Origin: Thermoplasmata archaeon
GTDB lineage: Archaea; Thermoplasmatota; Thermoplasmata; Thermoplasmatales; Thermoplasmataceae
DNA: 64,000 nt
Direction: 5' to 3'
Assembly (NCBI GenBank): GCA_021797555.1
Contig: JAJZZM010000004.1
Coordinates: forward strand, 62,001-126,000
Under the pieces are notes generated by a model. The model had not been told where the DNA came from. It ran no database searches and was given only the letters and a program-made list of their open reading frames with translations. How positions within the stretch are numbered: position 1 is the first letter of the stretch; each line of letters starts with the position of its first letter. Below, piece after piece: positions 13,837 to 24,183 of the stretch. A program made the position numbers and the translations under genes.

Positions 13837-14667
13837 TTATAATAAAAAGTACATTATAATTAAAATTGTTGAAATTATCTGTATAATAACTATTTCATTA
13901 GTTTTTCTTGATATTTTTAACTGGTTTCCCTTTATTGTAATAAAATGTAATATTGATATTATTATAGCGGGTATTAAGAATATAAATAATTTAATATTGT
14001 AGAGCTGTATTATAAAGCCTGAAAATAATATTAAAACATATATTAACTTAAAATTTTTTACCCGGTTACTTTCCTTTTTATCCTCTGTTATATGATGTAA
14101 AAACCTTATTGCCGAGGCAAGAAAACCCAGCAATATTGCTATTAATATTATTTTTATATTTATAATCTCACTGAAAACAATAAATGCCCCTATTAAAGAA
14201 AATATGCCGAATGAAAAAAATGTTGAAATTTCACCTAAACCCCTGGCATCAAGCTTAAATGGTGGCAGAACATATATTAATGAAACAAAAACCGCTAAAA
14301 AACCAATTAATATTAAAATGTATTTACCTGTAAATATTATTAAAAAAATACCTGCAATTATAGAGATTATTAATGATATCAAAAATGCTTTTTTTAAATA
14401 TTCTGGTTTAACATTCATATTTTTTATTAAATATGGCCCAACCGGAAATAATGTATCCTTATTTTTTACACCAAGGTTATTCAAATTATCAAAATAATCC
14501 ATTGATAAATTCAGTGCAGCCTGCATGAAAAATACAATTACAACCATCAATATAAACAAAAAATAATTTTTAAATAAATTAAATGACCATGCAATTAAAA
14601 TAGGAGATATTGATGTAAAATACAGTGGCAATTTCAGACCTTTTGCTACATCATTAAATTTTATCAT
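13837..14667 (-). CDS. UbiA-family prenyltransferase (MenA-like, divergent)
   Basis: 276-residue membrane protein with about 8-9 hydrophobic helices, of the UbiA superfamily that attaches a prenyl chain to an aromatic or other acceptor. The first Asp-rich motif is NLSMDYFDN near residue 53, and the second is HHITEDKKES near 185, weaker than in standard MenA. The loop after helix 4 contains YVLPPFKLDARGLGE, like the MenA YSxPPxKL loop. Candidate products are menaquinone (Thermoplasma-type quinone) or an archaeal lipid such as digeranylgeranylglyceryl phosphate; the sequence does not decide. It is divergent from the second prenyltransferase, with only 89 nt between starts. Confidence 0.78.
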   Translation of the reverse strand: MIKFNDVAKGLKLPLYFTSISPILIAWSFNLFKNYFLFILMVVIVFFMQAALNLSMDYFDNLNNLGVKNKDTLFPVGPYLIKNMNVKPEYLKKAFLISLIISIIAGIFLIIFTGKYILILIGFLAVFVSLIYVLPPFKLDARGLGEISTFFSFGIFSLIGAFIVFSEIINIKIILIAILLGFLASAIRFLHHITEDKKESNRVKNFKLIYVLILFSGFIIQLYNIKLFIFLIPAIIISILHFITIKGNQLKISRKTNEIVIIQIISTILIIMYFLL

Positions 14668-16115: not shown

Positions 16116-17081
16116 ATGACGCCTGTAATAGGTGTTAGAATGTTAACATTAATAGTGGAGACGTTATCGCAGTATTTATTCGTTTTATTAACAGCACCAT
16201 TATTTATTGGAATATACGAAAAATTAAAGGCGAATATAGAATCAAGAAGGGGCCCATCAATTTTTCAGCCATATTATGACTTATTCAAACTATTTAAAAA
16301 AGAAACAGTAATTTCAAAGGATTCATCAAAAATATTTTTATATGCACCCTATTTTGCTTTTGGAATTTATTCTTTAATAGCATTGATAATACCTGTATTT
16401 ATGTCAGAGCCAATAATTTTTACGGCTTCGGGTGACTTCTTTACGGGTGCCATTTTATTTTCTTTGGCAGCCTTTGTTAAAATAATAGGTACAATGGATT
16501 CAAAAAGTAATTTTTCATCTATGGGTGCCTCAAGATTAATGTCCTTCAATTTTTTCAGTGAAGCGGCATTAATAACTGTATTCTTTGCAGTTGCTTTAAT
16601 AACTGGAACAGATAATCCATACACAACAAACCACTATCTAATAGACTATCCATTATCAAATTTAAGCTTAGTACATATATTTGCAGTGTTTGCATTTTTC
16701 ATGGTGTTTTTATACGAATTCGGAAAAATACCCACACAGAGCGAGGGGAACCAAGAAATGGGCATGATAGATTCAGGCATAGATTATGAATACAGTGGGA
16801 AGCTTCTGGGAATAAATAAGTGGTCATCGTATATGAAGATATATTTATTAGGATCTGTATTATTAAATGTGTTTTTAATACCCTGGGGCATAATAAATAC
16901 ATTTCCGTATTTCTTTTTAAATATAATCACAATGATATTAAAATGGCTATTATTAATTATAATAATTCTGATTATAGATACATCTATGGCAAAACTAAGG
17001 CTGTTTAAGGTTGTAGATTATTTAGCGGTTGCATTTATATTTTCAATACTGTTTTTAATATTAACCGAGGTGATATCATGA
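16116..17081 (+). CDS. HyfC/NuoH-like membrane subunit of a hydrogenase-related complex
   Basis: 321-residue polytopic protein of the NuoH/HycD/HyfC family, the membrane arm subunit next to the quinone or ferredoxin module. Family marks are ESRRGPSIFQPYYDLFKLFKK near 45-65 and FLYEFGKIPTQSEGNQEMG near 203-220, the Glu-rich loop of NuoH. The hydrogenase-type wording (RRGPSIFQPYYDL) points to group 4 enzymes rather than to true complex I. A second possible start is ATG 16140, preceded by AGGTG. It is the first gene of a six-gene overlapping operon; its stop overlaps the next ATG by 4 nt. Confidence 0.88.
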   Translation: MTPVIGVRMLTLIVETLSQYLFVLLTAPLFIGIYEKLKANIESRRGPSIFQPYYDLFKLFKKETVISKDSSKIFLYAPYFAFGIYSLIALIIPVFMSEPIIFTASGDFFTGAILFSLAAFVKIIGTMDSKSNFSSMGASRLMSFNFFSEAALITVFFAVALITGTDNPYTTNHYLIDYPLSNLSLVHIFAVFAFFMVFLYEFGKIPTQSEGNQEMGMIDSGIDYEYSGKLLGINKWSSYMKIYLLGSVLLNVFLIPWGIINTFPYFFLNIITMILKWLLLIIIILIIDTSMAKLRLFKVVDYLAVAFIFSILFLILTEVIS

Positions 17082-17719
17082 ATATAATATATACAATCAT
17101 TTATCTGGTAACAGCCTTAATAGCGGTAAGTGGATTTTACATACAGGGCAATAAATATATAAGGTCAATGGCAATGACACAGGGATTTCAATCGTTGCTG
17201 ATAGCCATAGTGTCATTTATGCTTGGCTTCGTTCTGAAAGAGTATACATTTTTTATTTTAGGGGTATTAGTAATAATACTGAGGGTATTTTTAGTAACAT
17301 ATTTTTTAATAAATAAAATACCAAAAAATAAAAGCTATTTATATGAATCAAAATTGGGGACTACATATCTATTAATAATAGATTTAATATTTATTATCAT
17401 ATCAATATTTATTGTATATTCAATTTCATTTGTATATATAAAAACTGTTACATTTCCAGTAAGCAATATATTATTATTTCCCCTGCTCTTATTCTTCCAG
17501 GGTTTGTTCTTGATAGCCTCGAGAAGGAGAACCATAGCACAGGTTTTAGGCTATATAGAGGAGGAAAATTCATTGATTTTGCTGGGTGTTTTTATACTGC
17601 CGGTGCCAATAATAATAGAAAGCAGTGTTTTTCTGGATGTGCTTATTTTAGTTGTAATATTTTCTGTGATAAGCATAGAAAAGCCCGTACATGAAAAAAT
17701 GGAGGAACTGAGAGGATGA
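17078..17719 (+). CDS. HyfE-like (NuoK-related) membrane subunit
   Basis: 213 residues, six or seven predicted membrane helices, no soluble domain. The opening, with SMAMTQGFQSLLIAIVSFML, and the C-terminal block EENSLILLGVFILPVPIIIE are typical of hydrogenase-4 component E, whose second half resembles NuoK. The acidic residues in EENS and IIE correspond to the proton-path region of NuoK-like proteins (inference). ATG overlaps the stop of the preceding gene by 4 nt, and its own stop overlaps the next ATG by 4 nt, so the subunits are made in step. Confidence 0.85.
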   Translation: MNIIYTIIYLVTALIAVSGFYIQGNKYIRSMAMTQGFQSLLIAIVSFMLGFVLKEYTFFILGVLVIILRVFLVTYFLINKIPKNKSYLYESKLGTTYLLIIDLIFIIISIFIVYSISFVYIKTVTFPVSNILLFPLLLFFQGLFLIASRRRTIAQVLGYIEEENSLILLGVFILPVPIIIESSVFLDVLILVVIFSVISIEKPVHEKMEELRG

Positions 17720-19041
17720 TAATAAATATATTAATTTTAATAATTCCATTAATTGCTTCGATTTTCTATAAAAAAATAAAAACCTCAAGCATTATTGTAT
17801 CCATAATAGAGATGTTTCTGTTAATATTATTATATTTCAGTAAAACATATAATGGGTTTTTCTTTGTTGACAACATATCATTTATTTTTATATTAATGGT
17901 TGATTCTATATATCTTTTATCATTATTATATTCAAAAAAATATGTACACAGCATAAAAAATAAGGGAATATCTGAAAACTTCTATTATTTATTAATGAAT
18001 TTTTTCTATGTTTCAATGGTTTTTGCATTAATGGTAAATAATTATGGATTTATGTGGGTTGGAATAGAAACAACAACAATATCATCTGCATTATTATTAA
18101 TAACCGAAAAATCAGATACGTCCTTAGAAGCAACATGGAGGTATATAATTATAGTTTCTGCCGGCGTTACCTTTGCTTTTATTTCTGTTATACTAATTTA
18201 TTATTCATTCCACACATTAACAGTTACTGCAATAATATATTCAAAGGCGAAGGATACAATAGCCGTTAGATTGGCAGTGGGAATAGCATTAGTGGGTTTT
18301 GGAACAAAAGTCGGTGTTTTTCCTATGCATACATGGCTGCCGGATGCCCACAGTGAGGCGCCTGCTCCGGTAAGTGCCATGTTTTCCGGTGTTTTACTGC
18401 CCGTTGCATTATATGTTCTATACAGGATATATGAAATATTTCCAATGAGGGAATTATTTGTATGGGCAGGCACAGTATCTGTACTGTTCGCAGCATTATT
18501 TTTAGGTTACCAGAAGAATTACAAGAGAATGTTTGCATATTCTACAATGGAAAACATGAACATAGCATTAATTGGCTTAAGTACATTTACTTATATAGGT
18601 TTAATCGGTGCATTGCTGTTATTACTATCACACAGCTTTGGAAAGGCGGGTGCATTTTATTCATCAGGAAATATATATAAAATGAGCGATACAAAGGATA
18701 TCAACAGTATAAAGGGTTTAATCAATAATAAAATGTCATCCGCATCATTATTATTATCATCATTTGCAGTAACAGGCACACCACCTTACGGTACATTCTT
18801 TGGTGAATTCTTAATATTGTATTCTGTTTTTAGTATACATTTCTATGCACAGTTCATAATAATTGTATTATCATTATTTTTAGCATTTGTGTCAATAAAT
18901 TTCAATGTATCAAAGATGATTTTTAAAGGAAAATCAGATTATAGTGAAAATAATGTTAACACATTAATACCTCTGATAGCAGCAATTATTTCAATAGCTG
19001 TTGGTGTTATATTCCTGGTGGTTTACAATGAAATATTATAA
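17716..19041 (+). CDS. HyfF/NuoM-like proton-pumping subunit
   Basis: 441-residue antiporter-like membrane protein (Mrp/NuoL-M-N superfamily). The conserved Glu of helix 5 lies in MWVGIETTTISSALL, and the pump-family signature GTKVGVFPMHTWLPDAHSEA with Lys and His is fully present. About 13-14 helices are expected, and the length fits a HyfF/MbhH-type subunit without the long lateral helix of NuoL. It probably moves H+ or Na+ through the membrane arm. GGTGG precedes the next ATG, which starts inside this gene. Confidence 0.88.
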   Translation: MIINILILIIPLIASIFYKKIKTSSIIVSIIEMFLLILLYFSKTYNGFFFVDNISFIFILMVDSIYLLSLLYSKKYVHSIKNKGISENFYYLLMNFFYVSMVFALMVNNYGFMWVGIETTTISSALLLITEKSDTSLEATWRYIIIVSAGVTFAFISVILIYYSFHTLTVTAIIYSKAKDTIAVRLAVGIALVGFGTKVGVFPMHTWLPDAHSEAPAPVSAMFSGVLLPVALYVLYRIYEIFPMRELFVWAGTVSVLFAALFLGYQKNYKRMFAYSTMENMNIALIGLSTFTYIGLIGALLLLLSHSFGKAGAFYSSGNIYKMSDTKDINSIKGLINNKMSSASLLLSSFAVTGTPPYGTFFGEFLILYSVFSIHFYAQFIIIVLSLFLAFVSINFNVSKMIFKGKSDYSENNVNTLIPLIAAIISIAVGVIFLVVYNEIL

Positions 19042-20185
19042 ATTTGGAGATAAAAATGGAAGGTATATCGGAAGCAATGATAAATACGATGTATATGAAA
19101 ATACAATTGCCAGTAGGATTGCTGAAAATAATGAGAAAATAAAAAAGGAACCATATGAAATGTATTTTAATTATGGGCCTTCGGCAGGTGGATTAAGGGA
19201 ATCAGTAAATTTTAATATTGTTACTCCTGGGGAAACCATAAGGGATATTACTGTAAATTCATATTATAAGAGAAGAAGGATAAAAATTATAAATGATGAT
19301 ATAGATACTGCATTATTAAAGGTAGAAAGGATAAATGGCTTTCATTCAGCCTCAAATACTGTATGCTTTCTGCTTGCTGTTGAGGATGCTTTGAATATAG
19401 ATAATCATAATTCAAATAATAAAAGAATAATTGAAATAGAACTGGAAAGAATAAGGTCTAATCTTGATGTTATAAAGGGCTTATGTGAATCTGCGGGTTT
19501 TTCAGTTCCTGAAAAACAGTTGCTATATTTAATGGAAAAAGTAACAAGGATAATATCAGATACATTTAATCATAGATATTTCTTCTCAGCCAATTATATT
19601 AATAATGTTTACGGCAATTTTGACAGTATTAAATTGGATGATATTTATAAGGAATTTAATGAAATTTACAATGGCCTATTAGAATCAAAAATATTCATGG
19701 ACAGAATACAGGAAAACGGAATTGTAAAGGATGCAAACTCAACAGGCCCGGCTGCAAGGGCTTCTGGATATAAATACGATGCAAGAATAGATTCAAAATC
19801 ACTGGTTTATAATAATTATAATATATTTGCTATGGAGGATGGCGATACATTTTCAAGGTTTATGGTCAGGTCAAATGAAATTTTCTCATCAATAGAAATA
19901 ATAAATAATAATTTAAATAAAATAAATAATAATAAAAATGATGTTAAAATTGAAAATAAGTCCGGTGAAGGTGCGGCAAGAATAGAATCACCACAGGGTG
20001 ATATATTCTATTATGCAAACATAGAAAATAATAAAATAAAGGAATTATCCATAATATCGCCCTCATATTTAAATATAGAATTATTCAAAAAAGCAATAAA
20101 AAATAATAATATACTTACGGATTTCTTCTTTGTATGGAATAGTTTTGGTATATGGATCTCAGAACTGGAGGTGGATTTTATATGA
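19028..20185 (+). CDS. Hydrogenase/NuoD-like large subunit lacking the Ni-Fe ligands
   Basis: 385-residue catalytic-type subunit of the NuoCD / group 4 hydrogenase large subunit family. In true hydrogenases the first Ni-binding motif is RICGxC. Here residues 101-106 read RINGFH, replacing both cysteines. The C-terminal motif DPCxxC is also gone: the protein ends NSFGIWISELEVDFI. All four metal ligands are therefore missing, as in complex I and in Ehr-type hydrogenase-related complexes. The surrounding fold (AVEDAL, NHRYFFSANY) is kept. The ATG at 19028 follows GGTGG and is preferred over a TTG at 19001. The substrate or electron acceptor is unknown; quinone is a reasonable guess. Confidence 0.85.
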   Translation: MKYYKFGDKNGRYIGSNDKYDVYENTIASRIAENNEKIKKEPYEMYFNYGPSAGGLRESVNFNIVTPGETIRDITVNSYYKRRRIKIINDDIDTALLKVERINGFHSASNTVCFLLAVEDALNIDNHNSNNKRIIEIELERIRSNLDVIKGLCESAGFSVPEKQLLYLMEKVTRIISDTFNHRYFFSANYINNVYGNFDSIKLDDIYKEFNEIYNGLLESKIFMDRIQENGIVKDANSTGPAARASGYKYDARIDSKSLVYNNYNIFAMEDGDTFSRFMVRSNEIFSSIEIINNNLNKINNNKNDVKIENKSGEGAARIESPQGDIFYYANIENNKIKELSIISPSYLNIELFKKAIKNNNILTDFFFVWNSFGIWISELEVDFI

Positions 20186-20787
20186 TGTGGTTCCTTAAAG
20201 GTATAAAAAAAAGAATTAAAACCGAAAATTTAAACGACAAATACAAAATCAAATATCCATCTGTGCTTGAAGGCAAAAGCGATTACAATTGCCCTACAGG
20301 TGCCATAGAGAATAATAAATGGGTAAAAGAAAAGTGCATATTCTGTGAAAAATGTGATTTAAAGCCAACGTATAAACAGGATATGTATAATATAAACAAT
20401 AATATACCGGATATATTTAAAAAATCATTTTATTTATACCCTATAGATTCGGGAACATGCGGTGCATGCAATACTGAATTTAATACAATTTTTTCACCAC
20501 AGTATGATATAAATAGATTTAAAATATTCTTATCCAACACACCGCGGCATGCGGATGCTCTTGTAATAATGGGGGTTTATACAGAAAATATGGATAAAGT
20601 AATAGAAAATGCATACGATGCAATGCCTGAACCGAAATTATTAATAGGTTTAGGTGCATGCTCAGTTTCCGGTGGCATTATAGGTGAAAAAATTAGCAAA
20701 AAATTTGATATAGAAATTTTAGGATGCCCCCCAAGCCCATATACAATAATAAACGCAATATTAAAGGCGAGAGGTAATGTAAAATGA
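20182..20787 (+). CDS. Ferredoxin-motif / NuoB-like small subunit fusion
   Basis: 201 residues. The C-terminal 110 are a NuoB/HyfI-type small subunit: GTCGACNTE (C93, C96), GACSVSGG (C160) and GCPPSP (C182) supply the four ligands of the proximal [4Fe-4S] cluster. Before it lie NCPTGAI (C37) and KCIFCEKC (C52, C55, C58), the ligand set of one ferredoxin-type [4Fe-4S] cluster, so part of a HyfH/NuoI-like subunit appears fused here. No separate two-cluster ferredoxin subunit is present in the operon. GGAGGTGG lies about 8 nt before ATG 20182, which overlaps the preceding stop in ATGA and so decides the start. Confidence 0.87.
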   Translation: MMWFLKGIKKRIKTENLNDKYKIKYPSVLEGKSDYNCPTGAIENNKWVKEKCIFCEKCDLKPTYKQDMYNINNNIPDIFKKSFYLYPIDSGTCGACNTEFNTIFSPQYDINRFKIFLSNTPRHADALVIMGVYTENMDKVIENAYDAMPEPKLLIGLGACSVSGGIIGEKISKKFDIEILGCPPSPYTIINAILKARGNVK

Positions 20788-22538
20788 TTTTTAATGTATT
20801 GTATTATCTGCCATTAATATTAATATTCATTGCTGCAATAATTTCATATAAATTTAATAAAATCGGGTATATATTAACAATAATATCATCAATAATATTT
20901 TTTATATTTACATTTAAAATTTATGATTATATAACATATTTTTATTTAATAGCTGCAATAGTATGGATTATTACATCATTATTCTCAATAACATATTCAA
21001 AAAATTATGGCAGGTGGCTATCACCTATGTTTATATTAACAGTAGCCGGCATGATGGTTATATTATATTCAACAAATTTTTTAATTTTTATAACCGGATG
21101 GGAAATAATGTCAATACCGGCATATTTAACCGTTGCAATAAATAAAAGAAATGATACAGAAGCATATGTTTTTATGTTTTTCTCGGAAATAAGCACTATT
21201 TTAATAATTACTTCAGGTGTATTATCATTTTATTACACGGGTACATTTAGTTTTGTAAAAATCAATAATGATATTGTTTTATTAATATTTGCCATAGGCG
21301 CAATGTCAAAGATGGGATTAACACCATTTATGATATCCGAATGGCTGCCCATAGCACATGGCAGTGCACCTGCAAATTCATCAGCAATATTCAGTGCAAC
21401 AATGACATTAATGGGTGTATACGGAATAACAAAACTTGCATTACTGTCAGATGTGTCATTATATATAGGAATATTATTTATAATAATAGGAATAATTTCG
21501 GTATTATTCGGCGCATTATATGCATATATATCTGAAAATATGAAATCTTTGGGTGGCTTCAGCACAATAGAGAATAATGGAACAATATTGTCCGCGATAG
21601 GTTTGTTTGTGGCCGTTAATAATACCATATTAAGAACCTTTATTCTGATAACAATTGTGATATATGCAATGGCACATTCAATAGCAAAAACAGGGTTATT
21701 TATAAGTATAGGCTATACAAGGTCTGAATATTTCAGTGAAATAGACAATGTAAAAAATAATGAAAATTCCTTGGGAAAATTCCTTATATTATCATCCCTG
21801 TCAGGATTATTCCCGTCATTGGGCGGTTTAGCAACATGGATGGTAATAGAATCATTTTTTATGGCAGCGTTTCTTCATGGTGCTTTAGGTGTAACGGCCA
21901 TAATAGCAGGTTCTTTAATTGCAATGGGTGAAGGGTTTGCAACTGCAGCAATGCTAAAAATATTTTATTTTACAAATAATGGCAGTAAAAAGCATATAAA
22001 ATATGAAAATCACATAATATTATTAAATGGCATAATTTTAGTATTGTTATTCATTATATCACCATTAATTATAGGTAAATATTACATATCAGGCATACCA
22101 TCTGTTTTTGTGTTCAATGGCTTTATGATAGAGTCAAAATTTTCTAATGCAGATTTTGGCCTAATCTCACCATTTTATATTTTTATATTAATATTAATAT
22201 TTACGGTTGTGGCATATATAATATTCAGAAAACCGAAAATCCGTGTCTCCGGAAGATGGAATGGTGGTGTTGAAAATAATGAATATTATAATTCGTTTAT
22301 TTATTCAAATAATATAAGATTAATATTAAAAAATATATTAAGAACAAAATATGAAAATAATCAATTAATACAGACAGTTGATTTATTCTGGTTAGTTATG
22401 ATTGATATAGCGGAGGCATACAGAAAATTAGCAAAATATACTGCATATAAAATTATGAATAGTTCAATATCAATGTATATAATATATATGATACTGGCAT
22501 TTATATTAATTATAATTACCGTTTCCATAATCTATTAA
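20784..22538 (+). CDS. HyfB/NuoL-like antiporter-type membrane subunit
   Basis: 584-residue polytopic protein of the same superfamily as the HyfF-like subunit. FITGWEIMSIPAYL holds the helix-5 Glu, and MGLTPFMISEWLPIAHGSAP is the pump signature with a Ser-Ala-Pro variant and no Asp before His. The C-terminal 120 residues, with RWNGGVE near 490, are soluble-looking and then end in one more hydrophobic helix, as in HyfB. It completes the complex: two pump-type subunits, one H-type, one E/K-type and two redox subunits. The ATG overlaps the preceding stop by 4 nt. Last gene of the operon. Confidence 0.87.
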   Translation: MIFNVLYYLPLILIFIAAIISYKFNKIGYILTIISSIIFFIFTFKIYDYITYFYLIAAIVWIITSLFSITYSKNYGRWLSPMFILTVAGMMVILYSTNFLIFITGWEIMSIPAYLTVAINKRNDTEAYVFMFFSEISTILIITSGVLSFYYTGTFSFVKINNDIVLLIFAIGAMSKMGLTPFMISEWLPIAHGSAPANSSAIFSATMTLMGVYGITKLALLSDVSLYIGILFIIIGIISVLFGALYAYISENMKSLGGFSTIENNGTILSAIGLFVAVNNTILRTFILITIVIYAMAHSIAKTGLFISIGYTRSEYFSEIDNVKNNENSLGKFLILSSLSGLFPSLGGLATWMVIESFFMAAFLHGALGVTAIIAGSLIAMGEGFATAAMLKIFYFTNNGSKKHIKYENHIILLNGIILVLLFIISPLIIGKYYISGIPSVFVFNGFMIESKFSNADFGLISPFYIFILILIFTVVAYIIFRKPKIRVSGRWNGGVENNEYYNSFIYSNNIRLILKNILRTKYENNQLIQTVDLFWLVMIDIAEAYRKLAKYTAYKIMNSSISMYIIYMILAFILIIITVSIIY

Positions 22539-22558
22539 CTTATTTATTGGTATCTACT

Positions 22559-22570
22559 AAAATATTAAAT
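22559..22570 (+). promoter_or_regulatory. TATA-like box for the riboflavin operon
   Basis: An AT-only AAATATTAAATA-like stretch lies about 25-30 nt before the ribB ATG at 22592, with no Shine-Dalgarno between. Leaderless initiation at 22592 is the simplest reading; no FMN riboswitch is seen in the 53-nt gap. Confidence 0.4.
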
Positions 22571-22591
22571 AACATATTACAATTACATTTT

Positions 22592-23769
<1,178 letters not shown>

Positions 23770-23778
23770 GGTGATAAA

Positions 23779-24183
23779 ATGAAAATAGGAATGGTAGTTG
23801 CAGAATTTAATTATGATATAACAATGATGATGTTAGAGAGAGCTAAAGATCATGCAGATTTTCTTGGTGTGGAATACAAGATTCTTAAGGTGCCAGGAAC
23901 ATTTGATATACCATTGGGTATCAAGAAATTATTAGAATTGAAGGATATCGACGGTGCAGTAGCCATAGGGGCAGTTATAAAGGGTGAAACAGACCATCAT
24001 AGAATAATAATGGACAATGCTGCAAGAAAAATAACGGATCTATCACTGGAATATGAGAAACCTGTTGCTTTAGGCATATCAGGCCCGGGAGAGTCAAGAT
24101 TACAGGCAGAAGCTAGAATCGAAATGGCAAAGGAAGCGCTGGAAAGCTGTGTTAAAATGGTCAAATCCTTAAAAAATTTATAA
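23779..24183 (+). CDS. ribH: RibH, lumazine synthase
   Basis: Condenses the ribB product with the pyrimidine intermediate to form the lumazine precursor of riboflavin. 134 residues, family-typical. VPGTFDIPLGIK, AIGAVIKGETDHHR (with the catalytic His pair) and ALGISGPGE are the diagnostic motifs. GGTGAT stands in the 9-nt gap before the ATG. It ends the rib operon. Immediately downstream, on the opposite strand, is the decayed start of a surface-protein gene. Confidence 0.95.
   Translation: MKIGMVVAEFNYDITMMMLERAKDHADFLGVEYKILKVPGTFDIPLGIKKLLELKDIDGAVAIGAVIKGETDHHRIIMDNAARKITDLSLEYEKPVALGISGPGESRLQAEARIEMAKEALESCVKMVKSLKNL

Follow-up and report, generated by a model that had tools for sequence, protein, structure and literature searches.

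The DNA analysed here, a window of 64,000 nucleotides from the genome of a Thermoplasmatales archaeon belonging to the same genus as Ferroplasma acidarmanus, carries at 16116-22538, on the + strand, six genes that each overlap or abut their neighbour (Table 1). Pfam and NCBIfam back the assignment of all six: HyfB, HyfC, HyfE, HyfF, HyfG and HyfI-like subunits are present and NuoEFG are absent, and the HyfF-like and HyfB-like subunits score above the NCBIfam thresholds for subunits F and B of hydrogenase 4. The preliminary description had read the operon as one of hydrogenase-4/group 4 type, and these searches confirm it, as do ~60 archaeal loci in which the same six subunits occur together. 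Gene order is constant in these loci, except in Metallosphaera and some of its relatives, where HyfC-HyfE comes after HyfB. An Rfam search found no RNA elements near the operon. The riboflavin genes directly 3' of it keep this position in the window's two nearest relatives only.

Table 1. Genes of the operon and of its flanks, with the evidence for their assignment
Feature	Position	Strand	Evidence
Second, weaker UbiA/MenA-like gene	13837..14667		
MenA-like prenyltransferase, 424 aa	14718..15992		
HyfC/NuoH-like membrane anchor subunit, 321 aa	16116..17081	+	PF00146 E=2.8e-35
HyfE-like small membrane subunit, 213 aa	17078..17719	+	NF008556 (hydrogenase 4 membrane subunit) E=3.2e-9
HyfF-like antiporter-type subunit, 441 aa	17716..19041	+	NF005042 590 bits, cut-off 437
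HyfG/NuoD-like large subunit, 385 aa, 0 Ni-Fe cysteines, no NuoC domain	19028..20185	+	alignment, phmmer, AlphaFold2
Fusion of one-cluster ferredoxin-like domain (half NuoI) and NuoB/HycG-like small subunit	20182..20787	+	PF01058 E=7.5e-21 (short form)
HyfB-like antiporter-type subunit, 584 aa	20784..22538	+	NF005046 651 bits, cut-off 460
ribB, archaeal ribC, ribH	22547..24183		

Loss of the Ni-Fe ligands and placement of the large subunit

The large-subunit reading frame starts with ATG, and the best phmmer match of its product is the Mbh large subunit (6cfw_L, E=9.3e-13). Its AlphaFold2 model (pLDDT 94) matches best, among PDB folds, E. coli HycE of formate hydrogenlyase (7z0s_E, TM 0.81). 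Where [NiFe] group 4 enzymes have the ligand motifs RxCGxC and DPCxxC, the protein reads RINGFH (101-106) and SFGIWISE (372-379). Alignment to E. coli HycE pairs the ligands C241, C244, C531 and C534 with N103, H106, W376 and E379, and the canopy Asp, D529, with G374. The earlier claim that all four Ni-Fe cysteines are replaced, made from RINGFH and FGIWISE, thus stands; the only cysteines are 113 and 153, and the CxxC pairs elsewhere in the protein that could have overturned it were absent when the whole chain was checked.

The substitutions recur in archaeal homologues: of a non-redundant set of 69, 66 have N, 64 have W, 68 have E and all have G. They thus reflect neither chance nor sequencing error. 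In 20 of the 69, Sulfolobales among them, Phe, Leu or Tyr takes the place of His106. Ni-Fe enzymes and complex I share the canopy Asp of DPC (PMC9474812), and the Ni-Fe and complex I rows of our alignment keep it; all 77 archaeal Ehr rows have Gly in its place. Glu at the position of the fourth cysteine is also what NuoD has. Where NuoD has the His and Tyr that bind the quinone head group, the large subunit has R57 and G104, which, with G374, leaves it without any canonical quinone head-group residue, and a complex I-like head-group site is thus unsupported at the level of residues. The large subunits at three loci (L021, L068 and L071) form a side branch that keeps the first Ni-Fe cysteine (RYCGPL), with the other three gone.

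In a maximum-likelihood tree of 73 large subunits, the cysteine-less proteins form one clade of 52 rows with support of 100/100, and the clade persists (100/99) after deletion of both motif regions. All Cys-bearing group 4 proteins lie outside it. The clade adjoins E. coli HycE and HyfG; complex I NuoD and the Mbs-like proteins are on the other side, and the remaining Ni-Fe group 4 proteins fall between. The bacterial members come from four plasmid operons (Mycobacterium branderi, Rhodococcus, Bradyrhizobium and Allomeiothermus), which serve as stand-ins for Geobacter EhrL. The window protein's neighbours in the clade are Ferroplasma, Acidiplasma and related Thermoplasmatales; Sulfolobales lie close by. 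This is the grouping that had been proposed as a test of membership in the energy-converting hydrogenase-related (Ehr) class, and it upholds the assignment: to judge from the sequences, the six-gene complex is almost certainly the Ehr complex of a thermoacidophile archaeal sub-clade.

Ehr is an established class for which no function has been demonstrated (PMC4378227, PMC10284858, PMC10432482), as the preliminary description also stated; we found no biochemical result for any Ehr in the literature examined, and HydDB excludes the class from hydrogenases (PMC5037454). The window complex is one member of a conserved sub-clade rather than an isolated case. At a threshold of 1e-50 the clade profile matched in 62 of 390 Thermoplasmatota genomes sampled and, within the phylum of the Sulfolobales, in 9 of 300 sampled; at least two of the Thermoplasmatota matches (G496 and G623) still carry intact motifs and are Ni-Fe proteins. 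E-plasma (G011:C3) carries a further, second Ehr operon, whose large-subunit frame is broken into two pieces (L145, 7714-8924).

The thermoacidophile clade has a cavity signature, N..H/F and G-I-W-x-S-E with no canopy Asp, which may mark an Ehr sub-type; no description of it was found in the literature searched, a set that left out Coppi 2005 and Marreiros 2013. The canopy Arg is lost along with the canopy Asp, and the NuoC-like N-terminal domain is absent. Most members have ~40-70 residues ahead of the GP motif, a stretch of 137-222 residues in classic and mycobacterial Ehr and of 190-200 in the E. coli hydrogenases.

Iron-sulfur, proton-path and pump residues

The small subunit probably starts at 20182/20185, preceded by GGAGGTG, rather than at the ATG at 20152 (200-201 aa and 211 aa, respectively), and its fold matches HycG (7z0s_G). 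Its C-terminal NuoB-like part contains CGAC...GAC...GCPP, that is, the proximal-cluster ligands C103, C106, C170 and C192, in agreement with the earlier statement that this partner keeps its cluster cysteines. That statement missed the fusion of this part with an N-terminal one-cluster ferredoxin-like domain, whose motif CP...CxxCxxC supplies four [4Fe-4S] ligands (C47, C62, C65 and C68). In the thermoacidophile clade the two-cluster HycF/NuoI protein is reduced to one cluster. Of 70 relatives, 68 have the whole ferredoxin motif, the exceptions being two Micrarchaeota MAG loci, and each proximal-cluster cysteine is kept in 69-70 of 70 (complete set in 69). Conservation of all eight cysteines at this level indicates that electron transfer is under selection.

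Ehr operons on Micrarchaeota-binned contigs (L050 and L072), where mis-binning is possible, have small subunits without the ferredoxin-like domain, and in a Thaumarchaeota MAG (L067, 10122-10727) Ser replaces one proximal-cluster cysteine. In three Ehr operons the NuoB-like subunit lacks all four proximal cysteines, which read N/D/D/A, T/D/E/S and D/T/D/N; these are on plasmids of Mycobacterium branderi (L076, 10165-10959) and Allomeiothermus silvanus (L077, 10044-10925) and in a Thermoplasmatota genome (L133, 8919-9440; G341). Passage of electrons to the chamber looks impossible there, and redox activity is thus not universal in Ehr.

The proton-path residues of the large subunit are kept throughout the class. 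Neither Glu58, equivalent to the proton-donor Glu of HycE (E193) and MbhL (Glu21), nor R244 (HycE R395) varies among the 86 Ehr rows, and E284 (HycE E437) is kept in 85; the roles of the donor Glu and of the R395/E437 path have been described (PMC9474812, PMC11228991). In the membrane part, E201, E214, E225, D107 and R140 of the HyfC-like subunit are kept in at least 68 of 71 homologues. The HyfE-like subunit has E163 and D187 in 64/64 homologues and E181 in 59/64 (Asp in the other five). The Glu/Lys chain of the HyfF-like subunit (E118, K198, K310 and E364) is kept in 71-74 of 74, and that of the HyfB-like subunit (E107, K176, K302 and E356) in 64-70 of 70. With its Fe-S ligands, Glu58, R244, E284 and antiporter Glu/Lys residues in place, the complex looks redox-active and able to move protons.

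Proposed reaction and its alternatives

From the loss of the Ni-Fe ligands, the kept Fe-S ligands, Glu58, the pump residues and the gene set, which can be read directly in the sequence, we infer a donor, an acceptor, a direction of electron flow and proton pumping. Reduced ferredoxin would be produced by the 2-oxoacid:ferredoxin oxidoreductases of the cell, of which the window genome has two ferredoxin-dependent loci, and would pass its electrons one at a time to the [4Fe-4S] cluster in the small subunit's ferredoxin-like half. This built-in domain is the likely point of entry, since an all-against-all comparison of the flanking ORFs of 60 loci found no conserved donor gene beside the operon, only lineage-local or generic families such as ABC ATPases. 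Electrons would then move to the proximal [4Fe-4S] cluster, with its full cysteine ligation, and finally reach a small acceptor. This would be bound in the emptied Ni-Fe/quinone chamber, which lies between the large subunit, the small subunit and the NuoH-like anchor. The Glu58 route would supply protons for the chamber reaction, and the redox step would power proton transport via HyfC and the antiporter-like HyfF and HyfB. A ferredoxin-fed proton-pumping oxidoreductase, most likely with quinone as its acceptor, is our best explanation of the whole, proposed at somewhat less than even confidence.

The members of the thermoacidophile Ehr clade are mostly respiring organisms, which makes membrane quinone the leading acceptor. 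Taken separately, this part of the proposal, a ferredoxin:quinone oxidoreductase, is more tentative than the whole. The MqnA/MqnD pair and MqnC/MqnE-type enzymes are missing in the window genome and in the two genomes nearest to it and present in other members of the genus, yet the three genomes keep the operon. These species may make or import quinone otherwise, or their acceptor may be something else. Each of the three genomes (G000, the window genome, G002 and G007) is ~99% complete, lacks MqnC/MqnE-type radical-SAM enzymes and has only one PF02621 protein; elsewhere in the genus the futalosine menaquinone set is present in its usual form. By hand count, 27 of the family's 28 Ehr-bearing genomes have PF02621; few outside the family have it, and many Ehr-bearing Thermoplasmatota there have none at all. 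We therefore rejected co-occurrence with menaquinone genes as proof of the acceptor, PF02621 being rare outside the family and the window species lacking the core Mqn genes. A search for MenD gave below-cut-off matches only. Upstream of the operon, the MenA-like prenyltransferase has a ~140-aa N-terminal part without a Pfam match, and of the ten genus genomes only that of the window and those of the two other Mqn-lacking species have a UbiA-family frame of such a size (417-425 aa); the weaker UbiA/MenA-like gene beside it is divergent from it. Nothing usable was found in the expression literature for Ferroplasma or Metallosphaera.

In Ferroplasma the cluster has been annotated as an active NiFe hydrogenase or formate hydrogenlyase. 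The gene set does match hydrogenase 4, and formate dehydrogenase genes are reported for Fer1 (PMC3750248). However, the large subunit has no ligand cysteine, and neither a NiFe large subunit (PF00374) nor HypD, the one protein by which Hyp maturation was judged, was detected in the ten genus genomes searched, although control genomes yielded both. To read the Ferroplasma cluster as a formate hydrogenlyase is thus untenable and the probability of such an enzyme negligible; sequence evidence, as far as it reaches, excludes a Ni-Fe site in the window complex. Absence of Ni motifs from such clusters is already published, including a case within the same genus: Yelton et al. 2013 describe, for Ferroplasma Fer1 and other AMD plasmas, putative group 4 hydrogenases that lack Ni-binding motifs, and already doubted the formate hydrogenlyase reading on that account (PMC3750248). 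The hydrogenase reading of this cluster in acidophilic archaea should accordingly be corrected, and no H2 production should be deduced from it. Another metal or cofactor might be held at the old site by Asn103, His106 and Glu379, the first and last of which are strongly conserved, but the variation at His106, for which we rejected a rebuilt N/H/E site, the bulky Trp at the third ligand position and the lack of a linked maturation gene make this very improbable.

If ferredoxin electrons instead reduced another small molecule in the chamber, such as polysulfide, a disulfide or a soluble carrier, the complex would be a redox pump resembling Mbs, which shows that sulfur reduction is possible in a chamber without Ni-Fe (PMC7684303). 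The missing quinone residues and canopy Asp favour such an acceptor, as do the futalosine genes missing in many Ehr-bearing genomes. The Mbs mechanism, however, requires a three-cysteine proximal cluster, and Mbs has no equivalent of Glu21 (PMC7684303), whereas the window cluster (CGAC...C...C) is complete as in Mbh and the Glu is invariant in Ehr; Mbs-like proteins, moreover, group with Nuo rather than Ehr. Sulfur reduction via an open iron was rejected on account of the four-Cys cluster, and with both features opposite to Mbs, polysulfide reduction of the Mbs kind becomes less likely; a non-quinone acceptor as such we regard as unlikely, at roughly one chance in four. Equally doubtful is a chamber type of the thermoacidophile Ehr's own, in which ferredoxin oxidation and proton pumping would be joined to an acceptor and a head-group chemistry unlike protons, sulfur or canonical quinone; it would, if true, be a further kind of reaction within the complex I superfamily. 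Rather less probable still, the complex might run chiefly backwards or act as a device for ion flux, with the acidophile's steep inward proton gradient driving ferredoxin reduction, or serve in pH homeostasis, the role suggested for Methylacidiphilum Ehr (PMC6688271). The three operons without proximal-cluster ligands suggest that the membrane part can serve without redox chemistry; against this, the near-invariant Fe-S ligands of the thermoacidophile clade would be unnecessary in a pure antiporter, and Ehr is also present in many non-acidophiles (Geobacter, Nitrospira and Mycobacterium).

The ferredoxin-fed, quinone-reducing complex proposed here can be set beside several known systems. Ehr complexes have been described in Geobacter (EhrABCDLS), Sulfobacillus, Nitrospira and AOA (PMC4378227, PMC8691401, PMC10284858, PMC10432482). 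The window complex shares their six-subunit HyfB/C/E/F/G/I set, the absence of the four Ni-Fe cysteines and one tree clade, but differs from classic Ehr, with its S..N/T and N-L-S-Y-A-G, in the cavity signature and in the loss of the NuoC domain and canopy Arg. The same operon is found in Ferroplasma acidarmanus Fer1 (NC_021592.1, L027), whose large subunit is 62% identical to the window's; the Fer1 and AMD plasma clusters of PMC3750248 are from other species, and the consulted part of that paper has no partner, structure or active-site analysis. What is added here is the ferredoxin/NuoB fusion, the kept E58 and antiporter residues, the NuoC loss and the thermoacidophile cavity signature. The residue comparison also parts features kept across the superfamily (proton-path Arg/Glu, Fe-S wire and pump residues) from branch-specific replacements, and so names testable positions.

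E. coli HycE/HycG and HyfG are the nearest Ni-Fe relatives in the tree, and E193, R395 and E437 are kept in the window subunit; the Ni-Fe ligands, the canopy pair R478/D529 and the NuoC domain are not, and in place of the two-cluster HycF-type protein the small subunit carries a fused one-cluster domain. Pyrococcus Mbs, the sulfane sulfur reductase, is likewise a ferredoxin-fed member of the complex I superfamily without Ni-Fe, but it keeps two of the four ligand cysteines (PMC7684303), where the window subunit keeps none. The archaeal complex I NuoD encoded in the window genome (G000:C10) has the same fold and Glu at the fourth-Cys position; it differs in keeping the quinone-site His and Tyr and the canopy Asp, and lies on a separate branch. 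Ehr, though placed beside Ni-Fe group 4 in the tree, lost its metal site separately from complex I, and so represents a second, independent answer to chamber function without Ni-Fe.
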